DNA from: Nonomuraea sp. MG754425
Lineage (GTDB): Bacteria > Actinomycetota > Actinomycetes > Streptosporangiales > Streptosporangiaceae
Length of the DNA: 64,000 nt
Assembly (NCBI RefSeq): GCF_021699195.1
Contig: NZ_SSXE01000018.1
Location: 1-64,000 of the forward strand
Direction of reading: 5' to 3'
Shown: positions 52,254 through 63,765 of the stretch, in pieces
How positions within the stretch are numbered: position 1 is the first letter of the stretch
How the letters are laid out: every line of letters begins with the position of its first letter
Translations under genes and position numbers: made by a program
The notes under the pieces: generated by a model
The model's database searches: none
What the model was told of the DNA's origin: nothing
What the model saw: only the letters and a program-made list of their open reading frames with translations

Positions 52254-53354
52254 TCACCAGCGCAGCATCGCCGCCACTCCGCCCGCCTCGGCCAGCTCGC
52301 CCGCCGCCCTGCTCTCCAGCACGGTGACCTCACCTCCGTGCTCGAGGGCGAGCTCGATCATCTCCTCCTCCAGTTCCTCGGGGGCGACGGGCTTGGGCGG
52401 CGCGGCCTTCCACCCGCCGGCGTCGTCGAGCAGCAGGTGCTCGACCCGGCCCTGCCGCAGCAGGGAGAGGATGTCGTCGAGGCCGACCGCGCCGTTGCCG
52501 CCCGACAGGGCCAGGTCCCGGGCATGCACGGCCAGGGCGGCGTCACGCCGGGCCCGCACCTCGTCGAGGGTGGGACGGACGAACGCCAGCACCTCCGACG
52601 GCGACAGGGCGGGATCGAGCACGGCGTCCATCTGGATGATCTCCGTGCCGGCGGGCAGCGCTTCGCTCAGCACCGAGGTGTCGCGGGGGTCGCCCACCAG
52701 CAGCAGCGTCTCCCAGCCCAGCCGCCGGGACTCCGCTGCCACCTGCGGGGCCGACTCGCGCAGGAACCTGGCCAGGTGTTCCTCGACGCGCTGGTCGAAG
52801 CGGTCGGGGTGGATGCCGCTCCGCGAGAGGCCGGGCAGCGTCGCCGGCCCCTTGGCGGACCCGCCCGCGGTCGCCAGCCTGAAGTTGACCGGCTCCAGCT
52901 CGTCGGTCAGGCCGTACCGGCAGTCGAACAGCCGTACGCCGTCACGCCCCACCCTGACCACCCCGGCGGGCCTGTCGGCCTGAACGGCGGTGACGAGCGG
53001 CAGCAGATAGGCGTGCTCCCTGAAGGTGGCGAGGTCGCCCACCGGGAGCTGAACCCACTCGGTACGGACCTCGTCACCGGCCACCTGCGCGAACAGGGCG
53101 CGCCCGAGACCGGGACCGGCCGGGTCGAGCAGCTCGTCGATCCGCGGCTCCAGCAGGTCGAGGCGGAGGCCCGCGAGCCTGGCCCGCTCGTGGTCGGGGT
53201 CCGCGGACAGCTCCTGGCGCAGCGCGGCGATCTCGCTGCGCAGCCGGGTGCGCCCGGCTTGCGTGCCCGGCTCCATCGTGGTGTAGAGCGACAGCACACC
53301 GACTTCGTCGCCGAAGGCCGCCAGCTCGCGTAGATCTGTCTGGTCGAACACCAT
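52254..53354 (-). CDS. Vms1/eRF1-like (baeRF/VLRF1-type) protein
   Basis: The protein has 366 residues. DLRELAAFGDEVGVLSLYTT, RTEWVQLPVGDLATFREHAY, AGVVRVGRDGVRLFDCRYGL and LLLVGDPRDTSVLSEALP follow the pattern of Rv2629-like proteins, whose fold is related to release factor eRF1 and Vms1. Eukaryotic Vms1 releases nascent chains from stalled ribosomes. Bacterial relatives are proposed ribosome-associated factors, but the role here is inferred. No typical GGQ is visible; KGPATLPGLSRSG lies in the loop region. Alone on the minus strand. Confidence 0.75.
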   Translation of the reverse strand: MVFDQTDLRELAAFGDEVGVLSLYTTMEPGTQAGRTRLRSEIAALRQELSADPDHERARLAGLRLDLLEPRIDELLDPAGPGLGRALFAQVAGDEVRTEWVQLPVGDLATFREHAYLLPLVTAVQADRPAGVVRVGRDGVRLFDCRYGLTDELEPVNFRLATAGGSAKGPATLPGLSRSGIHPDRFDQRVEEHLARFLRESAPQVAAESRRLGWETLLLVGDPRDTSVLSEALPAGTEIIQMDAVLDPALSPSEVLAFVRPTLDEVRARRDAALAVHARDLALSGGNGAVGLDDILSLLRQGRVEHLLLDDAGGWKAAPPKPVAPEELEEEMIELALEHGGEVTVLESRAAGELAEAGGVAAMLRW

Positions 53355-56488: not shown

Positions 56489-59032
56489 TTACGACTCGGT
56501 CGGTTTGCAGTTGGCGGCTTCAGCGGTGGGCCGGCAAACCAATGCCGCCCGGATCGGCCTGCCTGACTCGACGGTCATGAGCCATACCTCGCGGCCCTGG
56601 GCGTCGTGGTTGCTGGCGTGGGCGGAGAAGGAGACCTTGCCGCTCGCGCCGTCGAACTCCTGTCCACGCAGGTTGTAGTGCACGCCGCTGCGGATGTCGC
56701 CGGTACCGCTCTGTGTGAGGTAGGCGTTGAGCGCGATCGCGACGGCCTGGGCCGCGTCATAGCCGAAGGCGGCGTGGGCGAAGGAGATGTGGGATGACGT
56801 TGCAGCCGCCCATTGCTGCAAGGTCTTCTGGCCCTGGTTGAGCGAAGTGTCACGGACGTCAGTCAGTGATACGAAGGACATGCTCACATCGTGTTTGTCC
56901 GGGTTGGATCGCACGTCATTGGCGACGGAACCGGTGACGTCGTCCGATGCGAGCAGTCTGATCCCTTGTTTTTCGCATGAGGCCCCCCACGCGAGCTTGA
57001 GGCTGCTCAGGAAGTCGGCCCTGCCCGTGTAGTAGATCACCTTCGCGCCCGACGCGCAGGCTTCCTTCACCGCGTTCTGGAGTGAGGCGTTGTCGGCGAA
57101 AGCGTGCTCCGTCTTCTCCGCTCCGTACTCCTTCCAGAACAGATCCTTGAGGTCCTGGCTGTAGAGCTCACCTGGCTGCTGCTGCCAGACGACGGCCACC
57201 TTGGGCCGTGCTCCCATCCCCTTGGCGAGCGCGAGTGTGTCAAGCCAGTGCACCGTGGCCTTCATCTGCAGGCTGTCCACGACGGCCAGCCGGAACAGGT
57301 AGGCCGACGGACGGCCTGCCACCACATTCGCGATCTTGTCCACCGTGGAGACCGTGCTGACCATCGGAACGTTCGCCTTCGTCAGCACCTCCACCGCCTG
57401 TCTGACCTCCTCGCGGCTCCAGGCGAACCCCACGGCGGCCGCCAGCGACGAGTCTTCCCGCGCACGTTCCCCGACGCCGGTAGCCGCGAGCTCGGCGCTG
57501 AGAAAGTCCTGGCCGGTGTTGGCGAATACGACCTTCATCTTCCAGTCGGACTTGCTCCTGTTGTAACTGGCCTGATATGCGCCTATCCCGGCCAGCTCGC
57601 CCGCCACCGCCGTCATCTGGCCGTCCTTGAAAGCCGCGCCGGGCTGCGTCGTCAGCGGGCCGAGGTAGGCGATCGTGAACACCTTGGAGTCGAACGGAAT
57701 CTGGCCGTTCTGCTCCTCTATCCGGTTCAGTGCCGGCTGTACGAACGGGTGCGGCGCCATCTTGTCCAGTGGCCCCAGGCCCACGCACTGCTCGGCCACC
57801 CTGTGCAGTTCGGTACCGCAATCCACGGTGGCCGCCAAGGTCGCGGTAATCGGCGCGCCTATCAGTATCAGCACCACTGCCCAGAAGGCCAGGGGGCGAA
57901 TGGGAAACAACCTTGCGCTACTGTCGGTCCCCGGCTGGGGGCCGTCCTTTTCCAGCTTGATCACGAGGTATGGGCTCGGCCTGACCCTGCGCATGGTTTC
58001 CTGCCATGTGCGGTAGAGCTCGACCGGACCCGCCGTGCCGCTGGTGTCGAGTTCGGCGCGGTGCACGGTCGGCGGCTCCGACGTAGAGACGACCAGCAGC
58101 AGCGGGCCTCGCTGCCCCGTGCTGACCCTGACCATGTCAACCAGTTCCATGAAGCGGCGGCCCGCCCTGCCGAGGTCGGCGTTCTTGATCCTTACCACGG
58201 GATAGGTGTGGCGGCCCCAGCCGGGCCAGGGAATCACGCGACGTCGGTAAGCCTGGCGGAGGTCCTCGAGCAGCGCGGTGACCATCAGCCTCTCAACCGC
58301 CTCTTGCCGCTCGGCCTCGTCCCGGCCGGGGTCAGCGAAGCGCATCGCGTAATCGATGAGGTCTTCGCCCTCCAGGCGCCTCAGAAAAGGCGCCTTGCGA
58401 AACCAGCGATAGAAGATCAGGCCGCGGATCAACAGCGCGGCGTGTAGCAGGGCGCAGATGACGGCCACGGCCGGGCTGACTAACCAGAGCACCAGGCTGA
58501 CGCGGTCCATGAGATTCTGCAGCCCGAACGCGACCAGCCCGGAGGCCGGTAGCCAGGTGGTCATGGTCCTGCTCACGTAGTCAGCCCAGCGCCGCAGCGC
58601 CGGTCCCGTGAACGCCTCCTTCCTCCGCCATTCAGCCAGAGATCGCTGGTAGGCGTTGCGCACGACCACGGGGTTGGGCGGACTCCCGGCTCCGGGAACT
58701 TGGAGGTTGCGCTCGCCCCAAGCCCAAAGGACGAATCGGGTCAGCGGGAAGCGGAGAGGCGGGAGCAGCGTGCCCTTGACCCAGCGCGCCAGGAGGCCGT
58801 CAACGCCCGTCAGCCGCTCCACGATCGCCGTGACGTCGGAGAAGCCGGTCGCTTCCGCATCGATCTCCGCATGCGGCGCCCGCCGGTCGAAGTGCCGCGC
58901 CTTTTCGACCGCCTGCTCGGCCAGTTGCATGTCGCCCGTGAACACCAGAACCGGTCGTCCGCCTTCCCTGGACAAGGGCGAGGGGCGGCGTACGGCCTTA
59001 TCAATCACCTGATATACCGGGGTATATGGCAT
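56489..59032 (-). CDS. membrane protein: degenerate NTPase-like domain plus extracytoplasmic periplasmic-binding domain
   Basis: This 847-residue protein starts with ATG 59032, with GGAGG about 11 bases upstream. Residues 26-60 (RPVLVFTGDMQLAEQAVEKA) look like the first strand of an AAA/STAND ATPase, but GDMQLAEQ replaces a GxxGxGKT P-loop. Near residues 278-316 VRIKNADLGRAGRRFMELVD and GPLLLVVSTSE resemble Walker B and sensor strands. Hydrophobic segments lie at about 179-207 (possibly a hairpin from 160) and 379-402. Residues 450-845 are a type I periplasmic-binding fold (IAYLGPLTTQPGAAFKDGQM, VPMVSTVSTVDKIANVVAGR, HAAFGYDAAQAVAIALNAYL) as in branched-chain amino-acid ABC binding proteins. 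It therefore looks like a receptor, not a transporter part. No neighbour explains its output. Confidence 0.75.
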   Translation of the reverse strand: MPYTPVYQVIDKAVRRPSPLSREGGRPVLVFTGDMQLAEQAVEKARHFDRRAPHAEIDAEATGFSDVTAIVERLTGVDGLLARWVKGTLLPPLRFPLTRFVLWAWGERNLQVPGAGSPPNPVVVRNAYQRSLAEWRRKEAFTGPALRRWADYVSRTMTTWLPASGLVAFGLQNLMDRVSLVLWLVSPAVAVICALLHAALLIRGLIFYRWFRKAPFLRRLEGEDLIDYAMRFADPGRDEAERQEAVERLMVTALLEDLRQAYRRRVIPWPGWGRHTYPVVRIKNADLGRAGRRFMELVDMVRVSTGQRGPLLLVVSTSEPPTVHRAELDTSGTAGPVELYRTWQETMRRVRPSPYLVIKLEKDGPQPGTDSSARLFPIRPLAFWAVVLILIGAPITATLAATVDCGTELHRVAEQCVGLGPLDKMAPHPFVQPALNRIEEQNGQIPFDSKVFTIAYLGPLTTQPGAAFKDGQMTAVAGELAGIGAYQASYNRSKSDWKMKVVFANTGQDFLSAELAATGVGERAREDSSLAAAVGFAWSREEVRQAVEVLTKANVPMVSTVSTVDKIANVVAGRPSAYLFRLAVVDSLQMKATVHWLDTLALAKGMGARPKVAVVWQQQPGELYSQDLKDLFWKEYGAEKTEHAFADNASLQNAVKEACASGAKVIYYTGRADFLSSLKLAWGASCEKQGIRLLASDDVTGSVANDVRSNPDKHDVSMSFVSLTDVRDTSLNQGQKTLQQWAAATSSHISFAHAAFGYDAAQAVAIALNAYLTQSGTGDIRSGVHYNLRGQEFDGASGKVSFSAHASNHDAQGREVWLMTVESGRPIRAALVCRPTAEAANCKPTES

Positions 59033-59519
59033 GCGTGATCAAGCCTCCGGATTGATGGTCGAACCCCCTGCGCGATTTGCTAGGGCGAGCGTACGTCGAT
59101 CAACGCGTCATCTGCCCGGATTCTCCAGATCGCATGGTTCAGTGATGCCCGCCTCGAAGTCTCTTGGGGTTGAGGGATTGAGACTGGTCGTGCGTCGACG
59201 TTCAGGCCCGCCCGTGTGGCGGTTCGCCACCACCGCGGTCGTTGGGCGACGGGTGCGGCTCCTTTGACGGACCGAGTTGATCAGATGATGAGCTGGTTGT
59301 CGTGCCGGCCATGGACGCGCTGGTGTTCTTGGCCGAGATGGTGGCGCCAGTATTCGGGCAGACCTTGACGACCCTGCTGGTTATGCCGCAGCATGCGTGG
59401 CGAAAAATTCGTCGCGGGCTCGTTGCTCCTGCTGGCGCAGCGCCACCGATCATGGCCACCCGGGCCCCACCACAGAGGCTGACGGCAGTCGAAATGAGCC
59501 GCGGGCGATCATGCGAACG
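59033..59519. other. no gene recognised
   Basis: About 490 bases upstream of the sensor-like protein and downstream of the LacI gene. A + strand frame from 59302 has no clear ribosome site or family; it is not called. Confidence 0.35.
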
Positions 59520-60524
59520 CTAATCGCGGATCCGGGTCAGAGCAGTCGCTGAGTCACGGATCACCAGTTTGGGTTCGGGGTCGGTGATGACACCGCCTGC
59601 GCTTGGCCGCCCCGCGATCAGGTCGTAAAGCGCCTCGACGCCGGCCCGGCCGAGTTGGTACATGGGCATCCGGACTGCGGTGACGGCCGGGCGCAGGTGT
59701 TGCATCAGGTCGACGTCGTGGATGCCGACCACCGAGAGCTGGCCGGGGATGGCGATGCCGAGGTCGCTCGCGGCGGCCAGGACCCCGACCGCGCTCATGA
59801 TGTTGTTGACGACGATGGCGGTCGGCGCGGTTGCCGCCTGCATGGCCTGCCGGAGCCCGTCGGCGCCGGCCTGCTCGCCGAACCCGGTGGCCAGGTGCGG
59901 AGCCGGTGTCAGGCCGGCGGCGTCCATCGCCTGCCGGTGGCCCAGGTAGCGCTGCTGGGAAAGGTATCCCAAACCCCCGACGAAGACGATGTGGCGGTGG
60001 CCGAGGTTGACCAGGAACCGCGTCGCGATCTCGCCCGCGCGGCGATCGTCCACGTCGATCCAGGGATGGTCCAGTGCGTGTTCCAGGACGAGGATCGGCT
60101 TGGGGTGGGAGCGGAGTTCAGCCAGCACGTCGTCGTCCAGCAGCCCTTCGCCGCGGATCAAGATACCGTCGACCGTGCCCTGGCTGAGCAGCCGGGTCAG
60201 GAACTGGCTGCCGGAGCGCATCGTTTCGGCATCGCCCAGCAGGACCGTCGCGCCGTGCTCCGCCGCCGCCTCGTAGACCCCGTGCCGCAGCGGTCCGTAG
60301 ACCGGGTTGTCGAGCTTGTTGAGGATCATCGCGATCATGTCGGTTTGGTTGAGCCGCAGCGAGCGCGCCGTCTGGTTCGGCTGGTAGCCCAATTGCTGCA
60401 TCGCCCGGAGCACCCGGGTGCGGGTGGATTCCCTCATCCGGGTGTGGCTCGTGCCGTTGACCACCGCCGACACCACGGCGAGTGACACCCCAGCCGCCCG
60501 TGCGACGTCACGTTGCGTTGCCAT
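59520..60524 (-). CDS. LacI-family transcriptional regulator
   Basis: The protein has 334 residues. The N-terminal HTH is ATQRDVARAAGVSLAVVSAV with the hinge LGYQPNQTARSLRLNQTDMI. The sugar-binding domain has FVNLGHRHIVFVGG and LSVVGIHDVDLMQHLRPAVT, where the conserved fold strands of LacI regulators fall. It is divergent from the pyruvyl-transferase-family gene and ABC permeases beginning at 60604. Inverted ACGT-containing sites fill the spacer, so it is their repressor in all likelihood, induced by the imported saccharide. Confidence 0.9.
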   Translation of the reverse strand: MATQRDVARAAGVSLAVVSAVVNGTSHTRMRESTRTRVLRAMQQLGYQPNQTARSLRLNQTDMIAMILNKLDNPVYGPLRHGVYEAAAEHGATVLLGDAETMRSGSQFLTRLLSQGTVDGILIRGEGLLDDDVLAELRSHPKPILVLEHALDHPWIDVDDRRAGEIATRFLVNLGHRHIVFVGGLGYLSQQRYLGHRQAMDAAGLTPAPHLATGFGEQAGADGLRQAMQAATAPTAIVVNNIMSAVGVLAAASDLGIAIPGQLSVVGIHDVDLMQHLRPAVTAVRMPMYQLGRAGVEALYDLIAGRPSAGGVITDPEPKLVIRDSATALTRIRD

Positions 60525-60545
60525 GGTGCAAGCCTACTCGGTTCT

Positions 60546-60592
60546 TGACGTAACGTCTCACCATCCCTATTTTGAATTCACGTTACGTCACG
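60546..60592. promoter_or_regulatory. paired LacI-type operators
   Basis: TGACGTAACGT (60546-60556) and ACGTTACGTCA (60580-60590) are exact 11-bp inverted copies, 23 bp apart. The first is itself the palindrome GACGT-A-ACGTC. The second ends 14 bp before the ATG at 60604, overlapping the leader. Two operator sites around a promoter fit LacI repression. Confidence 0.7.
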
Positions 60593-60603
60593 AAGGAGTT
60601 CAT

Positions 60604-61893
60604 ATGACAGCGACATGTCGCACCGTCCTCCTGCGGTCCTCCTGGGCGACGGTGAACATCGGCGACGTGGCTCACTCCCCTGGCGTGGTGCGGGCGTTTC
60701 AGCGGTTCGCCCCCGAGGTCGAGGTCATCCTCTGGCCGGTGCGGCTGGAGGAGCGCGAACGATCCATGCTGCGGCACGCGTTTCCCGACCTGCGCGTCGT
60801 CGATGGCACTCTCGGCGGGGACGGGCCGAGCACCCCGGAGTTGGCCGCCGCCATCGACGGCGCGGACGTCCTGATGCACGGATCGGGCGCCGACGCCTTC
60901 CAGGGCACCGAGATCGATTGGTGGCGCGAGCACGTGGGCCGCCCGTATGGGTACTTCGGGGTCACCGTGGATCCGCTGTGCCCACCGACCATGGCGACGC
61001 TGCCGGAGCTGGCACAGATGGTCGATCTGCTCCCACCGTCCTATCTCGAGGACGACGTCAAGGACCGTTTCGACAGCGCCGACTTCGTGTACTGCCGCGA
61101 AACGCTGACCCTGGCCACCCTGCGCGGCCAGAAGATAACCGGGCCCGACCTCGCCTTCGGGCCGGATGGCACGTTCGCGTTCGACCACACTGACGCCGTC
61201 GCCGCCGCTCGCCTGCTGGAGGGTTTCGGCCTGCAGCCCGGTCGGTTCGCCTGCTTCGTCCCGCGGCTGCGCTACGCCCCCTATGCGAAGATCTACGGCA
61301 CGGAACCGACCCGCGAGCAGATGCGGCGCGACGCGGTCAACCGGGCCACCGTGACGCACGACCTGGCGGTGCTGGCGGCGGCGATCGAGACCTGGGTACG
61401 CGTCAGCGGCCTGCCGGCCGTCGTGGTGCCCGAGATGAGCTATGCCGTCGAGCTCGCTCACGAGCAGCTTCCCAGCCTGCTCAGCCCACAGACGCTCGCT
61501 CAGGTCCGGATCCTGGACCGGTACTGGCCGCTGGAGGAGGCGACCGGGGTCTACGCCGTCTCGTCGCTGGTGGTCAGCATGGAGTGTCATTCGCCGATCC
61601 TGGCCGCACGACATGCGATCCCGACCGTCTACCTCCGGCAGCCGACCGAGACCACGAAATCTCAGATGTTCGCCGACCTCGGCGCCCCGGACCTGGTGAT
61701 CGAGCTCGACCATCGTGCCGCGGCGACGGTCGTCGCGGTGGTCACCGACATCGCCACCGACCCGGCGCCCGCGGTCGCCCGGAGCAGGAAGGTCGCGGCC
61801 AATGCCGACGACCGGCTGCGGGCGGCGGTGCGAGCCTGCGTCGCGGGCCGGCCCATCGGCCTGCCTGCACCGGTGGAGAGCGGCGATGCATAG
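60604..61893 (+). CDS. polysaccharide pyruvyl transferase family protein
   Basis: ATG 60604 after AAGGAG gives 429 residues. The pattern SSWATVNIGDVAHSPGVVRA at the start, DVLMHGSGADAFQG, YFGVTVDPLCPP and VSMECHSPILAARHAIPTVY near the end, with ALELAHE-like blocks between, is that of the PS_pyruv_trans domain. Classical members transfer pyruvate from PEP onto polysaccharide sugars as a ketal; the family also has divergent members of unknown activity. It overlaps the first permease gene by eight bases and shares its LacI-controlled promoter, so its substrate is probably linked to the imported saccharide. That link is inference. Confidence 0.75.
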   Translation: MTATCRTVLLRSSWATVNIGDVAHSPGVVRAFQRFAPEVEVILWPVRLEERERSMLRHAFPDLRVVDGTLGGDGPSTPELAAAIDGADVLMHGSGADAFQGTEIDWWREHVGRPYGYFGVTVDPLCPPTMATLPELAQMVDLLPPSYLEDDVKDRFDSADFVYCRETLTLATLRGQKITGPDLAFGPDGTFAFDHTDAVAAARLLEGFGLQPGRFACFVPRLRYAPYAKIYGTEPTREQMRRDAVNRATVTHDLAVLAAAIETWVRVSGLPAVVVPEMSYAVELAHEQLPSLLSPQTLAQVRILDRYWPLEEATGVYAVSSLVVSMECHSPILAARHAIPTVYLRQPTETTKSQMFADLGAPDLVIELDHRAAATVVAVVTDIATDPAPAVARSRKVAANADDRLRAAVRACVAGRPIGLPAPVESGDA

Positions 61894-62797
61894 CCTGCGC
61901 GACCGCTGGCGGCGCGACCGGGTCCTGCTGCTGCTGGCGCTTCCCGGGGTCACGGCGCTGCTGCTGTTCCACTATCTGCCGCTCGGCGGGAACATCATCG
62001 CGTTCCAGGACTTCCAGCCGTTCCTCGGAATCTGGCACAGCCCGTACGTCGGGCTGGACAACTTCGAGCCGGTGCTCACCGGCGACCCGGTGTTCCTCAG
62101 CGCACTCGCCAACACACTGATCATCACGCTGATCCAGGTGGTCTTCGTGTTCCCGCTGCCGATCTGCCTCGCGTTGATCCTGAACGCGACCATCAGCGAA
62201 CGGCTCAAACGCCTCGCCCAGTCGATCCTCTACATGCCGCACTTCCTGTCCTGGGTCATCGTGGTCGCCCTGTTCCAGCAGATGTTCGGCAACGGCGGGA
62301 TGCTCAACGCCTGGCTGCGCTCGGCCGACCTGTCCACGTTCCACATCGTCGGCGTACCCGAGTTGTTCAAACTCATGATCACATCGCAGGTGATCTGGAA
62401 GGACACCGGCTGGTCGACGATCATCTTCCTCGCCGCACTGTCCAGAGTGGATCCGGCGCAGATGGAGGCCGCGGTGGTGGACGGCGCCTCGGCGGTTCGC
62501 CGCCTGTGGCATGTGACCCTGCCCTACATCCGCCCGGTGATCGTCCTGCTGCTGATTCTGCGGCTCGGTGACTCGCTGTCCGTCGGGTTCGAGCAGATCA
62601 TCCTGCAGCAGGCACAGGTCGGCGCCGGCGCCAGCGAAGTACTCGACACATACGTCTACAACCACGGGATCGTCGGCGGCGACTGGGGCACCGCGGCCGC
62701 GGTGGGGCTGATCAAAGGCATTGTCGGTGTCGCGCTCGTGCTCGGCGCCAACCGGTTGGCCCACGCCCTGGGCGAGCAGGGGGTGTACGCCAAGTGA
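61886..62797 (+). CDS. ABC transporter permease (LplB/PotB type)
   Basis: ATG 61886 overlaps the preceding TAG and gives 303 residues with six helices. VVDGASAVRRLWHVTLPYIR is the EAA loop, and NTLIITLIQVVFVFPLPICL forms one of the central helices. The sequence resembles LplB-type permeases of CUT1 importers for complex saccharides. The next gene starts at GTG 62794 within its stop (GTGA), so the pair is translated together. Confidence 0.9.
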   Translation: MHSLRDRWRRDRVLLLLALPGVTALLLFHYLPLGGNIIAFQDFQPFLGIWHSPYVGLDNFEPVLTGDPVFLSALANTLIITLIQVVFVFPLPICLALILNATISERLKRLAQSILYMPHFLSWVIVVALFQQMFGNGGMLNAWLRSADLSTFHIVGVPELFKLMITSQVIWKDTGWSTIIFLAALSRVDPAQMEAAVVDGASAVRRLWHVTLPYIRPVIVLLLILRLGDSLSVGFEQIILQQAQVGAGASEVLDTYVYNHGIVGGDWGTAAAVGLIKGIVGVALVLGANRLAHALGEQGVYAK

Positions 62798-63765
62798 CGA
62801 GCCGATCTGTGCCGACCGCGGTGTCCGTGGCGCGCCCCGCCGCGGGCACCGGGCCGCGGCGGCCACGCTCGGGACGCAGCCGGCGTCCGGCCTGGATGGG
62901 CGAGCCCAGCAAGCTGGGGTTCGGTGCGCGGGGACTCGTGCTCGGCCTGGGCTGCCTGGCGGTTCTGGTGCCGTTCTGGGCGGTGCTCGTGACCAGCATC
63001 GCCTCTCCGGCGGAGGTCAACGGGGCGGGCGGCTTCGTGCTGTGGACGAACCAACCGACGCTGGACTCCTACCGGGCCGTCCTGTCCGGCGGAATCGTCA
63101 CCCGTGCGCTGCTGGTGAGCGCCGGCATCACCGCGGTCGGCACGGCACTCAGCCTCGTCGCCACGATCGCTCTGGCGTACGCGCTGTCGCGGCCAGGTTC
63201 GTTGCTGCAGAAGCCGATCCTGCTGATGACGGTGTTCACCCTGCTGTTCAACCCGGGCATCATCCCGATGTACCTGGCGGTCAAACAGCTTGGCCTGCTG
63301 GACAGCTACCTGGCACTGATCCTGCCGGTGCTGGTGAACGCGTTCAACGTCATCGTCATGCGCGCGTTCTTCCAGGGAATCCCCGGCGAGCTGCGGGAAA
63401 GCGCCTATATGGACGGTGCCGGGGAGATGCGCATCCTGCTGCGGATCGTCCTGCCACTGTCGAAGGCGGTCGTCTCCGTGATCGGGCTGTTCTACGCAGT
63501 GGCGTACTGGAACGCCTTCTTCTCCGCGATGTTGTACCTCCAGTCGTCGGAGAAGTGGCCGCTGCAACTGGTGCTGCGCACCTACGTCGTCAACAACACC
63601 CCGATCGGGTCCGACCAGCTCAGCTCGAACGTGGAGAACCTGCCACCACAGATCTCCGTCCAGATGGCGATTCTCGTCATCTCCGTCCTGCCCATCCTGT
63701 TCGTCTACCCCTTCATCCAGAAGCACTTCGCCAAGGGACTCATGGTCGGCGCCGTCAAGGGCTGA
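62794..63765 (+). CDS. ABC transporter permease (LplC type)
   Basis: GTG 62794 overlaps the upstream TGA and gives 323 residues. A Pro/Arg-rich cytoplasmic N-terminus of about 45 residues is unusual. Six helices follow. The EAA loop is ESAYMDGAGEMRILLRIVLP, with NPGIIPMYLAVKQLGLLDSY before it. NVIVMRAFFQGIPGELRESA is typical of LplC. It forms the second half of the importer; the binding protein starts 33 bp downstream. No ATPase gene is present in the visible part. Confidence 0.9.
   Translation: MTSRSVPTAVSVARPAAGTGPRRPRSGRSRRPAWMGEPSKLGFGARGLVLGLGCLAVLVPFWAVLVTSIASPAEVNGAGGFVLWTNQPTLDSYRAVLSGGIVTRALLVSAGITAVGTALSLVATIALAYALSRPGSLLQKPILLMTVFTLLFNPGIIPMYLAVKQLGLLDSYLALILPVLVNAFNVIVMRAFFQGIPGELRESAYMDGAGEMRILLRIVLPLSKAVVSVIGLFYAVAYWNAFFSAMLYLQSSEKWPLQLVLRTYVVNNTPIGSDQLSSNVENLPPQISVQMAILVISVLPILFVYPFIQKHFAKGLMVGAVKG

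Follow-up and report, generated by a model that had tools for sequence, protein, structure and literature searches.

Modular structure of the fused gene

The window analysed here is a stretch of 64,000 nucleotides from Nonomuraea sp. MG754425 (NZ_SSXE01000018.1, positions 1 to 64,000), part of contig C80 in the 11.3 Mb genome of this soil actinomycete. On its minus strand lies a gene, conserved in actinomycetes, whose single 847-residue chain (open reading frame 56489-59032) joins three modules: a relative of P-loop nucleoside triphosphatases (NTPases) that has lost its nucleotide motif, transmembrane (TM) segments and a periplasmic binding protein (PBP) domain of Venus flytrap type. A fusion of this kind at 56489..59032 had been claimed in an earlier sequence-only reading, and our analysis confirms it. 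The modules are known, but for their combination we found no description in open-access literature among the matches listed. The features are as follows.

56489..59032, minus strand: whole gene for the 847-residue receptor-like protein (open reading frame call and homologue searches)
59044..59048, minus strand: Shine-Dalgarno-like GGAGG, 11 nt upstream of the ATG (read directly)
58598..59032, minus strand: pseudo-NTPase, first half (residues 1-145; strands 28-33 and 54-58; model and hhalign)
58889..58954, minus strand: eroded Walker A position (residues 27-48, PVLVFTGDMQLAEQ...), aligned to PVVVAVGPPGSGKT of a soluble homologue
58424..58576, minus strand: hydrophobic, putative TM hairpin (residues about 153-203) within the NTPase core (hydropathy and model)
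57899..58387, minus strand: pseudo-NTPase, second half (residues 216-378; strands 279-283, 312-316 and 355-360; model and hhalign)
58247..58288, minus strand: family signature helix with DLRxAY (residues 249-262), common to the soluble NTPases
58172..58204, minus strand: eroded Walker B strand (residues 277-287, YPVVRIKNADL; NSILLLDNAHS in the soluble homologue)
58076..58108, minus strand: sensor-1-like strand (residues 309-319, GPLLLVVSTSE; DPLVVVATSAQ in the soluble homologue)
57824..57901, minus strand: TM helix (residues 378-403), probably leading outside (hydropathy and model)
57785..57820, minus strand: hairpin with invariant C405 and C416 (58/58 rows), a putative disulphide
56507..57694, minus strand: type I periplasmic-binding (Venus flytrap) domain, residues 447-842 (profile and structure comparison)
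within 56507..57694, minus strand: flytrap pocket S539/T563/Y624/G670/R671/D697 and cysteines C659, C686, C833 and C842

The pseudo-NTPase domain

The relation of the N-terminal part to soluble NTPases is seen at the profile level by hhalign, the first half alone matching a soluble protein at 1.8e-5, and the predicted structure is consistent with it. Soluble actinomycete proteins of AAA_22/AAA_16-like type (L063, L112, L113 and L114) share the core strands, the DLRxAY signature and the Walker-B-like and sensor-1-like strands. Compared with them, the fused protein has lost Walker A, has acquired a TM hairpin within the core, and carries a TM helix and PBP domain in place of their C-terminal part. 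D257 of the DLRxAY helix is invariant in alignment A4, and so is the corresponding FLxD position in A3. Profile and fold relation together point to descent from P-loop NTPases, with structural support that is middling; Foldseek on the N-domain alone placed HslU rows at the top (best E 0.04), and VIA was a re-examination of those same matches. When fused and soluble proteins were ranked by score, the first protein belonging to neither family stood above the fused rows L074, L101 and L102; the A4 direction did not cover one soluble protein. Alignment A4 omits L074, L075 and L087, while A1 holds 23 of 27 homologues (omitting L022, L025, L029 and L037); L011, L012, L013, L015 and L027 were set aside by script as own copy, duplicates, broken or partial. 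Two results were not used as evidence: Pfam on 24 N-domains returned no NTPase family (best E 0.0054, to the YiiM helix domain), and a profile search of the N-domain against PDB had 6c2u as its sole match (a 'phosphate-loop protein', E 1.2).

The Walker A motif GxxxxGK[ST], present in the soluble homologue, is found in 0/58 rows of the fused-family alignment. These rows represent 47 distinct genes, 45 of which cover the site (0/45). Since the loss recurs in all fused relatives in which the site could be examined, it is not peculiar to the window gene. The acidic residue of Walker B (hhhhD) is absent in the window protein as well, whereas several distant fused members keep LLD. In the predicted model, a helix starts at residue 35, right behind the first strand. 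The domain evolves faster than the PBP part, with a nonsynonymous rate (dN) below the synonymous one (dS). The evidence thus supports the view that the cytoplasmic part is a P-loop NTPase relative whose nucleotide motif is lost, and it bears out the earlier proposal of a degenerate NTPase in residues 1-380: a relation to NTPase families was found, together with absence of Walker A. Such a pseudo-NTPase is unlikely to go through a canonical NTP cycle and may have given up NTP binding.

Two further observations concern this domain. The relative L072 (7313-10375) carries a long insertion just behind the first strand, at the position of the degenerate P-loop. In the window's own genome there is a second, weak match to the soluble-NTPase profile (G000, C347:35517-35747, 2.9e-4), on the Walker A side of a 695-residue frame, which might be a soluble relative.

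Membrane segments and flytrap domain

Hydropathy gives clear helices at 178-196 and 381-399 of the window protein. The model adds another at 144-174, where hydropathy in the window protein stays under the threshold used. Alignment and model place the hairpin behind the Walker-A-like position and ahead of the Walker-B-like one, and thus as an insertion into the NTPase core. The sequence-only reading had NTPase, membrane and PBP blocks following one another; all three are present, but the first hairpin lies inside the NTPase core and not behind it. By hydropathy, no hairpin segment was seen in the distant relatives L076-L081, and L082 has one; in the tree of binding domains, L076-L082 together make up one side of a branch supported by SH-aLRT 99. 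With two passes in the hairpin and a third at 378-403, the NTPase would lie inside the cell and the C-terminal half outside. An oxidising, outside location fits the conserved cysteines of that half: C405, C416, C659, C686 and C842 occur in 58/58 rows and C833 in 57, and they may be paired.

The C-terminal domain has the two-lobed type I substrate-binding fold and is closest to LivK/LivJ. The binding domain does follow a membrane helix, as had been supposed. A structure search with the full-length protein was filled by matches to this domain. S539, T563, Y624 and D697 align with identical residues of LivJ, which we take to contact ligand there, and they are conserved among the fused rows. Amino-acid recognition positions are thus recognizable in the pocket, and the ligand would most likely be an amino acid or a derivative.

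Distribution

The nearest named relatives of the 847-residue protein are from Thermocatellispora (74%) and Nonomuraea (65%), and in its own genome the protein matches only itself. Matches occur in 174/297 genomes of the host's order; this tally scored three candidates per genome and includes matches to the binding domain only, so it is not a number of full-length homologues. Relatives of the fused protein are present in other actinomycete lineages, in several families. A search for spread by plasmids gave a single weak match, in a chromosome-sized Nonomuraea record. The protein has no match in NCBIfam or PADLOC, and in Pfam only a weak one to ANF_receptor.

The gene is apparently frameshifted in G147 (C3:444328-446825) and in pieces in G239 (C62:35155-36476), and some strains may therefore not need it.

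A proposed one-protein receptor

The protein looks like a receptor rather than a component of a pump. We consider it reasonably probable that it is a membrane Venus flytrap receptor, in which a cytoplasmic pseudo-STAND domain relays ligand binding to a partner encoded elsewhere. In this model, the flytrap domain outside the membrane would bind a small ligand. Its closure, or rearrangement of a dimer, would then be transmitted by the 378-403 helix to the STAND/AAA+-type domain in the cytoplasm. Because loss of the P-loop motif makes canonical NTP cycling improbable, we propose for the dead NTPase a role as scaffold or as platform for oligomerisation, by which the cytoplasmic partner might be recruited or released. 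In the branch of the window protein, the extra hairpin would anchor the NTPase core to the membrane. On the whole, the earlier interpretation was mostly right, although only partly supported.

If signalling takes place in this way, a binding protein has been welded to a dead STAND-type switch to give a flytrap receptor, and sensing of nutrients or small molecules is linked to STAND modules such as multicellular bacteria have in their immunity-like systems. A function would also be gained for a protein with no NCBIfam match and just a weak Pfam receptor match. More tentatively, these proteins could make up an undescribed class of one-protein bacterial receptors, combining an amino-acid-sensing flytrap with a nucleotide-dead STAND scaffold, found in several actinomycete families and in some of them plugged into EAD/VMAP conflict modules.

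Comparison with known systems

In Venus kinase receptors, class C G protein-coupled receptors and natriuretic receptors, the ectodomain comes first in the chain. Here the order is reversed and a dead NTPase lies inside, whereas their inner part is a kinase, a seven-TM bundle or a cyclase. What Venus kinase receptors (PMC2680970) have in common with the window protein is a flytrap ectodomain with an amino-acid motif, a TM helix and an intracellular signalling domain; the other two ectodomains show the same likeness. The GlnH-GlnX-PknG system (PMC6069109) likewise uses a binding protein for sensing, with the signal proposed to pass via a membrane protein to control of metabolism, but it is described as three separate proteins including a kinase, while here everything is in one chain. 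Venus kinase receptors and GlnH-GlnX-PknG would be parallels in working and not relatives over the whole chain.

Binding proteins of LivK/LivJ type are free or lipid-anchored. As type I binding proteins (3td9, 4gnr), they resemble the C-terminal domain in fold and pocket positions; they are transporter subunits, however, and here the PBP comes behind an NTPase-like domain plus TM helix.

Closer to bacterial conflict, the iSTAND and iSTAND2 domains (PMC7159879, PMC8195603) are alike in being inactive STAND-type domains of multicellular bacteria. As described there, they are third components of vWA-MoxR ternary systems, which sets them apart from the membrane receptor architecture found here, where EAD/VMAP/MoxR genes were seen next to the fused gene in one genus only. 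The two-gene EACC1 systems (PMC7159879) contain caspase proteins of actinobacteria with an N-terminal module, a TM helix and an extracellular PBP, but those systems comprise a caspase domain and an EACC1 partner. Pfam found no caspase in the window protein, and EACC1 had no match among the Pfam-scanned window neighbours, with presence of an EACC1 model in Pfam unchecked.

Alternative explanations and gene neighbourhood

Neighbourhoods were compared in 43 regions, 40 with a called match and three without. Subtracting two twice-fetched records and the soluble gene from the 40 leaves 37 distinct PBP-fused loci. Genes were called by a simple script.

One alternative is that the protein belongs to a conflict (anti-invader) network, as an inactive STAND of the kind seen in iSTAND ternary systems, whose TM-PBP tail is a sensor or effector wired to EAD/VMAP/MoxR. 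Kaur et al. 2020 (PMC7159879) describe conflict systems built from such modules, and with them inactive STANDs as well as caspase proteins in which TM helices are followed by a PBP domain. Some weight comes from genus g95, in two genomes of which (L080:5790-9413 in G446; L163:2900-9674 in G575) an EAD1+EAD2 adaptor follows the fused gene on the same strand, the two gaps being 36 and 267 bp; in G575 only, an EAD2-VMAP gene and then an AAA_5 gene, which we read as MoxR, come behind the adaptor. The G228 genome has one EAD1 match (L162:7464-7703), situated some 7 kb away from three tandem copies of the fused gene. Two or three tandem copies are found at L069, L096 and L103, and such copies suggest diversification.

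Against this, EAD1 has no match in the window's own genome, and of the 9/26 searched genomes that have one, it adjoins the fused gene in only 2; among EADs, this genome-wide search covered EAD1 alone. These are the grounds on which the EAD/VMAP link is kept as a rival only. Queried by tblastn, the three G575 proteins matched neither the window nor any other fetched locus, in a search insensitive enough to miss the EAD1 of G228. No vWA or MoxR was present among 13 Pfam-scanned window neighbours, nor did the MoxR-like protein of G575 match the window by tblastn; the lack of vWA-MoxR linkage thus concerns the window copy only, as VMAP and MoxR-like genes do exist in G575. PADLOC has no match in the protein, and the company that the gene mostly keeps is of another kind. 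No partner is universal across the 37 loci, but a class-V aminotransferase (serC-like, as we read its size and place) and citrate synthase both stand within three genes at 16/37, and at least one of them at 22/37. All 22 are among the 30 distinct loci of the window's own family f1, the named members of which are Streptosporangiaceae; at about half of these 30 loci, the fused gene sits between the aminotransferase and the citrate synthase gene. Named from one representative (L090), further genes of this housekeeping island encode PdxH, a DtxR-type regulator, a SpoIIE-type protein and a rhomboid. The window copy lies outside the island, the flanking genes of which are adjacent on contig C8 of its genome, 197 bp apart. 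Altogether, we regard a conflict network as unlikely.

Still less probable is a membrane-anchored substrate-binding subunit serving a branched-chain-type ATP-binding cassette (ABC) importer encoded elsewhere. The closeness to LivK/LivJ and the presence of other type I PBP genes in the genome (11 matches) would suit it, but here, unlike in secreted or lipid-anchored subunits, the PBP stands behind 378 residues of cytoplasmic type and then a TM helix. Moreover, the N-domain is retained in distant relatives, which a mere tether would not require. No ABC permease or ABC ATPase was seen among 20 Pfam-scanned neighbours at 13 other loci (5/20 match nothing), so that, as anticipated, the loci with identified neighbours show no transporter operon. 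Within three genes of the L096 array lies one gene of a cluster that includes an ABC_tran protein.

That the cytoplasmic domain still binds nucleotide via a divergent site and remains a switch is equally doubtful: the sheet, sensor-1-like strand and DLRxAY signature are retained with dN < dS, and some distant members keep the acidic Walker B residue, but Walker A is lost in all 45 genes that cover it, the window protein lacks that acidic residue, and in the model a helix directly follows the first strand at residue 35.

The permeases near the window gene were rejected as partners, for their operon has its own binding protein. This uptake locus (window 59520-63765 and L110:782-5943) has a LacI regulator, a polysaccharide pyruvyl transferase-like gene and two ABC permeases; past the window end, it contains an SBP_bac_1/8 protein and a heparinase II/III-like protein. 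It is a probable operon for polysaccharide uptake and degradation. On the other side of the gene, 52254-53354 encodes a protein that matches the bacterial archaeo-eukaryotic release-factor-like group (baeRF family 10; 3.6e-15).
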